Positions 17,267 through 20,368 of a stretch of 35,568 nt of DNA are shown one piece after another. A program made the translations under genes and the position numbers. The DNA is taken from positions 1-35,568 of the forward strand of contig JAMOVG010000248.1 in assembly GCA_027061725.1 (NCBI GenBank), in the 5' to 3' direction. Under the pieces are notes generated by a model, which searched no databases, was not told the DNA's origin, and saw only the letters and a list, made by a program, of their open reading frames with translations. Numbering within the stretch: the stretch's first letter is position 1; each line of letters begins with the position of its first letter. Origin of the DNA: Desulfobacteraceae bacterium. Its GTDB lineage: Bacteria > Desulfobacterota > Desulfobacteria > Desulfobacterales > JALSRD01.

Positions 17267-18127
17267 CTACTGGTAGATCTTCTTGAAATCCTCGATGGTT
17301 TTCTGCACCTCTTCCATGTCGGGGGACTGCGGGGCGGCGACCGGCTTTTCCGTTGGGGCCGGCGTCGCCGCCTTGAACTGCTGCAGGTCGAAGAGGCCCT
17401 TGTCGAACGGTTCGTCGACCCGCGTGCGCACCACGGTAATCTCGCGCACCAGAATCTGGTTCTCGTAGCACTCCACGCGCATGGGATACCACAGGCCCCC
17501 GGCGAGCTGTTCCCATTTCTGGAAACGGAATTCGACCTGCTGCACCCCTTGGGCCGACGGCGTCGATGGGTACAGGATCCAGCGCACCGGCAGGAAGCGT
17601 TCCTGCTCGATCCACAACTGGGGAAGGGTGGTATCCGGGAAGGCGGCTCCCAGGACGTAGACCACCACAGGGCCGTCGTGCCCCAGGCTGGACACGCCGA
17701 TATCGATGTCCGCCGCCACCAGGCGGTTGCGCAGTTCCGTCCGGCTGCGGGCCAGCAGCAGATCCCGGTAGCGGTCCAGGCGGTGATCGGCGCCGGGAAC
17801 CACCCGTCCGTCTATAACGGTCACCTGCCGGCTGCCCCGTTGGATGAACGTTCGCCGGGCGACGGCCGTGGACACGTCCGAACGCAGGTCGAGGGGGAAG
17901 CGGTAGCGCAGGATCTCCGTGATTTCATGGCCCTGCCCGCTCTCGGCCAGGCCGAAGAGGACCTGTCGCTGTTCGACCAGCAGGGTGCGGGCCGATCCCA
18001 TCCCGCGGGCCGTCATGCCCACCAGGTAGGGGCCGGGCAGCACGTATGCCATGGCCCGGGGCGAGGCGCAGAACAACAGCAGAGCAGCCGCCGCAAGCGG
18101 CGGAAAGCGCCTGGAAAAAAGCCGCAT
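17267..18127 (-). CDS. Exported LolA/LppX-like protein of unknown function
   Basis: A 286-residue protein with a clear signal peptide: basic MRLFSRR, hydrophobic LAAAALLLFC and a probable cleavage after ASPRAMA (about residue 27). The mature part has a repeated strand-like pattern, with FLPVRWILYPS, VEFRFQKWEQLAGGLWYPMRVE and VREITVVRTRVDEPFDKGLFDL (given in part). Such patterns resemble the half-barrel of LolA-like lipoprotein carriers, in which a linear description of basis, weighting and derivative strands ends with a FD.GLFDL-type motif. I call this resemblance, not identity. The C-terminus is proline/alanine-rich then helical. The start has GGGAG about 7 nt upstream. It lies between the phosphatase and pyrG. 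Confidence 0.75.
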   Translation of the reverse strand: MRLFSRRFPPLAAAALLLFCASPRAMAYVLPGPYLVGMTARGMGSARTLLVEQRQVLFGLAESGQGHEITEILRYRFPLDLRSDVSTAVARRTFIQRGSRQVTVIDGRVVPGADHRLDRYRDLLLARSRTELRNRLVAADIDIGVSSLGHDGPVVVYVLGAAFPDTTLPQLWIEQERFLPVRWILYPSTPSAQGVQQVEFRFQKWEQLAGGLWYPMRVECYENQILVREITVVRTRVDEPFDKGLFDLQQFKAATPAPTEKPVAAPQSPDMEEVQKTIEDFKKIYQ

Positions 18128-18268: not shown

Positions 18269-18904
18269 TTACTGGGCGAAAAAAAAGATAAAGTCCGGCA
18301 GCTGCAGGCAGGTCAGCTTGCGCCCGTATACCGCCCCGGTGTCAATGCCGATTTTGTTGGGCTCCATCAGCGGCTCCCGGAAAGGTGTGTGCCCGAAGAC
18401 CACGATCTTGCCGAAGTCGTATTTGGAGCGGATGAACCGGCTGCGGATCCACATCATGTCGTGGGGAGACTGGCGCTCCAACGGCACCCGGGGTTTGAGG
18501 CCGGCGTGTACGAAAATGTACTCTTCGGTCTCGTGGTACAGCACCAGCGACTCGTAGAATGCCAGGTGGTCAGGGGGCATGGCGCGGGGATTGGCCCCGT
18601 GCCGCTCATAGCTGTCCAGCGTGGCCGTTCCGCCGTTGGCCAGGAAGCTGAAATCGTCCTCTCCCGACAGGAAGTCGAGCAGCATGGCCTCGTGGTTTCC
18701 CTTGAGGGTGATGACGCGGCCCGGGTACTGCTTCTTGAGCGCCACCACCCGATCCACCACAGCAAAGGGGTCCGCCCCCCGGTCGATGTAGTCTCCTACG
18801 AATAGCAGCCGGTCCCGGCTGAAGTCGATGTCAATACTGTCCAACAGTGCATCGAGCTTGTCGATGCACCCGTGGATGTCACCTACGGCGAAAATACGGC
18901 CCAT
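18269..18904 (-). CDS. PPP-family metallophosphoesterase (serine/threonine phosphatase or Ap4A-hydrolase-like)
   Basis: A 211-residue protein with the complete PPP metal-binding set: GDIHG at residues 8-12, GDYIDRG at 37-43 and GNHE at 69-72, plus downstream FVHAGL and VFGHTPF histidines. It should bind two metal ions and hydrolyse phosphoesters. Bacterial relatives act on phosphoserine/threonine/tyrosine proteins or diadenosine tetraphosphate, and sequence alone does not decide. No Shine-Dalgarno sequence precedes the ATG; instead a heptad repeat tract starts 6 bp upstream. It lies 104 bp after eno on the same strand. Confidence 0.9.
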   Translation of the reverse strand: MGRIFAVGDIHGCIDKLDALLDSIDIDFSRDRLLFVGDYIDRGADPFAVVDRVVALKKQYPGRVITLKGNHEAMLLDFLSGEDDFSFLANGGTATLDSYERHGANPRAMPPDHLAFYESLVLYHETEEYIFVHAGLKPRVPLERQSPHDMMWIRSRFIRSKYDFGKIVVFGHTPFREPLMEPNKIGIDTGAVYGRKLTCLQLPDFIFFFAQ

Positions 18905-18910
18905 GTCAAT

Positions 18911-18959
18911 CAGCTGTCAGGTTTCAGGTATCAGCCGTCAGGTATCAGGTTTCAGACGG
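18911..18959. repeat. Seven tandem heptanucleotide repeats (CAGNNNN)
   Basis: On the plus strand the 49 bp divide exactly into seven 7-bp units: CAGCTGT, CAGGTTT, CAGGTAT, CAGCCGT, CAGGTAT, CAGGTTT and CAGACGG. Every unit starts with CAG, and two pairs are identical. Read on the coding strand of the flanking genes these are CTGAAAC/CTGATAC-type units ending just before the phosphatase start. Heptad repeats of this kind are known from cyanobacteria (STRR sequences) and similar tracts occur in other genomes. Confidence 0.85.
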
Positions 18960-19008
18960 GGAGCCGTTTTCCCACCACCTGGTCGCTGAAAGAGAAACGC
19001 CTTTGCGA

Positions 19009-20368
<1,360 letters not shown>

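Follow-up and report, generated by a model that had tools for sequence, protein, structure and literature searches.

The window, meaning the whole stretch of DNA that was analysed (35,568 nucleotides), is one contig of a Desulfobacteraceae assembly of 4.07 Mb (97.62% complete, 410 contigs). On its minus strand an enolase gene is followed by a gene for a calcineurin-like phosphatase, and about half of the spacer between them is taken up by a tandem array of heptanucleotides. The features of this locus are as follows.

18269 to 18904, minus strand: calcineurin-like phosphatase (Metallophos, PF00149; Pfam), with a start that lacks a Shine-Dalgarno (SD) sequence
18905 to 19008, minus strand: entire spacer between enolase and phosphatase, 104 bp long; its counterpart in the congener G001 measures 22 bp
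18911 to 18959, minus strand: heptad array of seven units, two rounds of a 21-bp triplet (direct reading, Tandem Repeats Finder and shuffles)
18964 to 18991, minus strand: putative opposing arm, decayed, following the enolase stop: TTTCAGCGACCAGGTGGTGGGAAAACGG (matches the copy on contig C400 weakly)
19009 to 20277, minus strand: enolase (PF00113/PF03952; Pfam), the upstream co-directional gene, its start taken from a codon-based gene caller

The longest open reading frame for enolase extends to 20325. The best ten named matches to the phosphatase are 58-62% identical and come from Desulfobacterales, Desulfobacteraceae or Deltaproteobacteria MAGs. The gene after it (17267-18052, minus strand) has no Pfam match at E ≤ 0.001, and an Rfam search of positions 18700-19300 returned zero matches at E ≤ 1.

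A first-pass annotation of this DNA had divided the 49 bp into seven CAGNNNN units ending 6 bp from the phosphatase ATG, and direct reading confirms both statements. The plus strand of 18911-18959 reads CAGCTGT, CAGGTTT, CAGGTAT, CAGCCGT, CAGGTAT, CAGGTTT and CAGACGG, and six bases (18905-18910) separate the tract from the ATG at 18904-18902 on the minus strand. Read on the coding strand, the tract consists of CTGAAAC, CTGATAC, CTGACGG, CTGATAC, CTGAAAC, CTGACAG and CTGA, in which a CTGA core recurs seven times with a period of 7, giving seven units of the 7-bp consensus CTGANNS. A longer period is present as well. The tract matches itself at 24 of 29 positions when shifted by 21 bp (three units) and at 29 of 43 when shifted by 7 bp, Tandem Repeats Finder assigns its best score of 73 to period 21, and the 21-bp triplet occurs about twice. 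The array is far above chance, with a score of 36.8 compared with at most 13.4 when the window was shuffled 40 times under a first-order Markov model.

The ATG at 18904 is well supported as the start of the phosphatase. An in-frame ATG, GTG or TTG lies 21 nucleotides before the GD(I/V)HG motif in 13 of 16 orthologous loci, as it does in the window; these 16 were examined from a set of 27, the remainder of which lie mostly on the other strand. The first-pass annotation had allowed in advance for a distal start codon with a proper ribosome site, and the phosphatase open reading frame contains no ATG, GTG or TTG farther upstream. The absence of an SD sequence that it reported is likewise real. 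The duplex predicted between the upstream region and a 9-nucleotide anti-SD tail has an energy of +0.4 kcal/mol, among the weakest 2% of 355 genes with a median of −6.5 kcal/mol, although this comparison is tilted toward strong SDs because the starts of those genes were set by a caller that rewards them. A weak start is not peculiar to the tract-bearing gene, as the phosphatase start in the congener yields −2.6 kcal/mol, which is also weak relative to that median, and several other orthologs have no clear SD as judged by eye.

This placement brings to mind translational control. Under such a model the repeats would take over from the SD sequence as a site for S1 or some other RNA-binding protein, and copy number would tune phosphatase synthesis. 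The tract is in the CTGANNS sense and sits at the SD position, and TAACTGA repeats, which in another register read CTGATAA, are described in such positions in Beggiatoaceae, where control of this kind has been proposed (PMC4679880). However, the congener has the gene without the tract. In G001, a diverged congener (66% protein identity), the enolase and phosphatase genes are both kept in the same order, and the 22-bp spacer between them is free of heptads. Either the tract arose in the source lineage or the G001 lineage lost it; the near-absence of the heptad family from the G001 genome (1 match, versus 23 in the source genome) favours gain in the source lineage. Moreover, the congener start is weak too, which makes it more probable that the insertion was merely tolerated than that it acts as a translational switch.

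The suggestion that the tract belongs to a dispersed repeat family was upheld by a genome-wide search of the kind proposed in the first-pass annotation. A three-unit pattern allowing at most one mismatch has 34 matches in the 4.07-Mb source genome (22 separate places, counted from the listing), compared with 3 for a reversed control, and a four-unit pattern has 23 compared with 0. In a source-genome sample of 438,379 bases, which includes the window and was in large part picked for pattern matches, 25 arrays scoring at least 11 are intergenic and four lie in called genes. The unselected part of that sample (183 kb, of which about 20 kb is N-masked) holds three arrays at a score of 11 or above and none for the reversed control. 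A search for k-mer enrichment in intergenic DNA with a crude ORF-based gene caller gave nothing clear; that caller was then replaced by a simple codon-based one, on which the gene calls rest. Dispersed tandem heptanucleotides are familiar from cyanobacteria as STRRs, whose units differ from those found here.

The intergenic arrays of the source genome are placed as mirror images. Twelve of the 25 are nearest a stop codon, and all of these have TCAG in the sense direction, at distances of −1 to 19 bp from the stop, while 12 of the 13 nearest a start codon have CTGA in the sense direction and one is opposite. This rule of TCAG sense after stops and CTGA sense before starts holds for 24 of 25 arrays (p = 1.5 × 10^−6 if all are independent, which two arms in one spacer are not). 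Several spacers hold both arms, and single-armed spacers also occur. Among the 13 start-nearest arrays the window tract is the only one within 17 bp; the remaining 12 are at distances of 17-147 bp, and in several cases an SD sequence intervenes between array and start. A family that is found about as often after stops, in the opposite orientation, and that otherwise leaves room before its start codons makes translational control unlikely, and this proposal of the first-pass annotation is not supported for the window tract.

Related heptads extend well beyond this genome. We examined 58 genomes of the order (the source genome, a congener and 56 representatives of other families, with one genome per species), and 44 contain matches when two mismatches are allowed. 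Overlapping matches within one array were tallied separately in these counts, and most genomes, though not all, have no match to the reversed control; pattern and control counts are 379 and 105 in G046, 69 and 23 in G042, 49 and 12 in G009, and 10 and 10 in G048. The main unit varies from genome to genome and includes CTGACTC, CTGAAGG, CTGAATG, CTGATAG and CTGACCC. The orientation of CTGA as an invariant was rejected, since its side differs between genomes: TCAG follows stops in the source genome, in G046 and mostly in G042, CTGA follows stops in G011 and G025, and G009 and G043 are mixed.

These comparisons bear on the possibility that paired arrays could serve as binding sites for a chromosome-architecture protein resembling IHF or HU. 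Heptads with a shared CTGA core, arranged in opposite-strand pairs according to the figure legends, have been described in Geobacter metallireducens (PMC2700814), and the breadth of occurrence across the order would fit such a role. However, a main unit that changes between genomes, together with a CTGA side that flips, is odd for one conserved binding protein, and the congener has only a single match. We regard this assignment as very unlikely.

A feature that persists when units change is the strand carrying more G residues. We took period-7 arrays, whatever their unit, from six relatives picked for many matches (G009, G011, G025, G042, G043 and G046), together with the CTGA arrays of the source genome. 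Each boundary contributed a single array within 100 bp, and in-gene arrays, arrays not flanked by called genes on both sides, arrays with equal G and C, and low-complexity runs were dropped. Across the seven genomes, the G-rich strand points from the gene into the spacer in 111 of 127 arrays near gene boundaries. Co-directional stops show this polarity in 51 of 58 cases (65 of 104 in array-free spacers; Fisher p = 0.0005) and co-directional starts in 29 of 35 (45 of 118; p = 2.6 × 10^−6). At convergent stops the ratio is 21:1 against a small background of 6:5 in array-free spacers (p = 0.0096), and at divergent starts the count of 10 of 12, against 52 of 102, is not significant alone (p = 0.062). 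Beyond 100 bp there is no strand bias (44 to 42). By genome, G043 has no bias (3 of 6) and the source genome is weaker (15 of 22) because units such as CTGACGG are nearly balanced in G and C.

The polarity helps in judging whether the arrays are simply microsatellites. Heptads could expand by slippage without any element, and their orientation could result from selection against SD-like sequences before starts and against Rho-prone sequences after stops. In favour of this, perfect arrays such as the CTGACAA run on contig C102 exist, as do single-armed spacers, and arms are not specifically paired (see below). However, SD mimicry and loss of downstream transcription should not matter between convergent stops, and the polarity found there counts against selection; the convergent-spacer bias appears unlike a product of selection on ribosome binding or downstream transcription. 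The copies in G011 also have a common core. Slippage by itself is thus improbable as a full account.

The polarity could instead reflect a law at the level of DNA, whereby the G-rich strand runs 5′ to 3′ from gene boundary into spacer. It is conceivable, though we hold it a long shot, that a dedicated, telomere-like end-extension activity lengthened the two 3′ ends of a broken spacer with G-rich heptads, using lineage-specific units. Several enzymes that might underlie the repeats were considered across the 58 genomes. Reverse transcriptases were rejected as an origin, as heptad matches do not track PF00078 (Spearman 0.05, p = 0.72), which is absent from eight of 16 heptad-rich genomes, the single-contig G011 included. 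A Y1 transposase (RAYT, PF01797) was rejected as the mover (Spearman 0.24, p = 0.064); it has no match in the source genome as assembled (97.62% complete) and is also absent from two of the 16 heptad-rich genomes. Ku was set aside, being present in one of 58 genomes. With both RVT_1 reverse transcriptases and Ku failing to explain the polarity here, any end-extension enzyme would be of another kind. Separately, G050 contains 43 RVT_1 matches; many of them have equal scores and an open frame of 484 amino acids, which represents a retroelement expansion.

The relative G011 offers the clearest view of an element. There, heptads (CTGAAGR) form the ends of a palindromic repeat of about 95 bp with a shared core, for example at L318:4176-4284. 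Within the 155.5 kb taken around heptad matches, 23 distinct places, the query's own included, match over at least 80 bp, 12 of them on both strands, with identities of 65-83% apart from the query's own copy. Many of the listed whole-contig matches lie at 2.05-2.34 and 3.6-4.0 Mb. A filled and an empty site were sought in G058, a congener of G011, where a 16-kb query has five matches. One site was compared: both genomes have its downstream gene, and no heptads are seen before this gene by eye, but the upstream gene differs. A minisatellite inside a MITE is reportedly described in Porphyromonas gingivalis (PMC4596501).

A few copies in the source genome can be aligned across both arms and the core, for example the spacers on C129 (37.2 kb) and C41, in alignments that carry no significance test. 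The window and C400 spacers share 51 identities over 72 columns. For the non-array part of the window spacer, six of 1000 shuffles reach the score against C400, although C400 is the best of 18 partners and the core match would not survive correction for that number. For the left half of the window spacer, the best score among the 18 other spacers with arrays is 13.4, and among 161 spacers lacking arrays it is 15.0 (means of 9.05 and 8.18, respectively), so that its top matches are no closer in the first group than in the second.

Tests of arm pairing gave a similar picture. Arms of the same spacer are not more complementary than arms elsewhere in the source genome (p = 0.57, 19 spacers), nor is pairing raised in G011 (p = 0.77, 23 spacers), G009 (p = 0.13, 8 spacers) or G046 (p = 0.28, 6 spacers). 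In G042, which has several unit types, same-spacer pairing exceeds background (p = 0.0005, 7 spacers). Predicted folds have a mean z of −1.53 in 17 array spacers, compared with −0.90 in 80 of the 132 array-free spacers (p = 0.077). A defined stem-loop element with paired arms is therefore not supported in the source genome, where neither same-spacer arm matching nor fold stability is significantly raised. By eye, G042 L278 and L280 are nested spacers with several heptad types in mirrored order, and in L278 mirrored heptads surround another palindrome, as if by repeated central insertion.

Our preferred reading is that the window tract probably belongs to a copy of a dispersed heptad-repeat element that is intergenic and lineage-specific, either as one of its arms or as the array that has survived. 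Such copies have mirrored arms at gene boundaries, with SNNTCAG units in sense close behind a stop codon, CTGANNS units in sense ahead of the following start, or both, and the copy at this locus would be a tolerated insertion. This reading draws on the dispersal of the family, its mostly intergenic location, its mirrored polarity and its absence from the G001 spacer. We prefer a decayed inverted-repeat element as its form, while slippage from a seed array is possible. The element would have entered or expanded in the enolase-phosphatase spacer after the split from the congener, and slippage that doubled the 21-bp triplet may then have lengthened the tract. Other arrays leave room for an SD sequence, whereas this one may have been tolerated up to the ATG because the phosphatase start was already SD-poor and there was little to protect. 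Any effect on phosphatase translation, if present, would be incidental.

Dispersed intergenic heptad-repeat families are already known, and the family of the source genome is new among them. A literature search for such heptads in Desulf- taxa, with subscription journals outside its scope, matched only PMC4692102 and PMC2700814. The latter describes class 3 “predicted global regulator binding sites” of G. metallireducens, which are MTYCTGA heptads for which IHF/HU binding was suggested. According to its legends, 15 of the 16 sequences aligned have five units, and the sequences are drawn as folding back and switching strands; the paper states that no such elements were found in G. sulfurreducens. 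These sites resemble the present family in being tandem heptads with a CTGA core, intergenic and multicopy in a delta-type proteobacterium. However, by description rather than alignment, their CTGAMTY differs from CTGANNS (PMC2700814): the window units CTGAAAC, CTGATAC, CTGACGG and CTGACAG do not fit it, while CTGACTC of G046 would.

In marine Beggiatoaceae, TAACTGA is described as one strongly preferred unit, mostly before starts, in 169 direct sets and one inverted set (PMC4679880). Those repeats are alike in containing CTGA and in lying mostly in the sense direction just upstream of starts, where they replace the SD sequence (PMC4679880); the present family differs in its degenerate units and mirrored arms. 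TAACTGA is not among the window units, which vary. The window tract shares its type of position, sense and over the SD site, and is atypical of its own family in this respect (one of 13 start-nearest arrays). Elsewhere in the source genome, a regular CTGACAA run after a stop codon (C102:858-913) is a one-base variant of the Beggiatoaceae unit.

A parallel in placement comes from Xanthomonas and Nostoc, whose GGGAATC and GGGGA(C/T)T heptads are described as mostly intergenic; two Xanthomonas genomes contain 70 and 75 convergent pairs, respectively (PMC4692102). Up to 50 bp beyond a stop codon the G-rich strand of these heptads is sense, and over the last 50 bp ahead of a start it is antisense; the mirrored arrangement at gene boundaries is alike. 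However, the unit is unrelated and G-quadruplex-capable (PMC4692102), whereas the window units contain no run of three Gs.

What looked like a candidate switch for the phosphatase thereby becomes part of a general pattern, and the finding cautions that a heptad array near a start codon is not automatically a regulator. Mirrored heptad arms border spacers in several genomes of the order, with lineage-specific units and a common strand polarity as in Xanthomonas and Nostoc. This polarity, convergent genes included, is a testable clue to the origin of heptad repeats.
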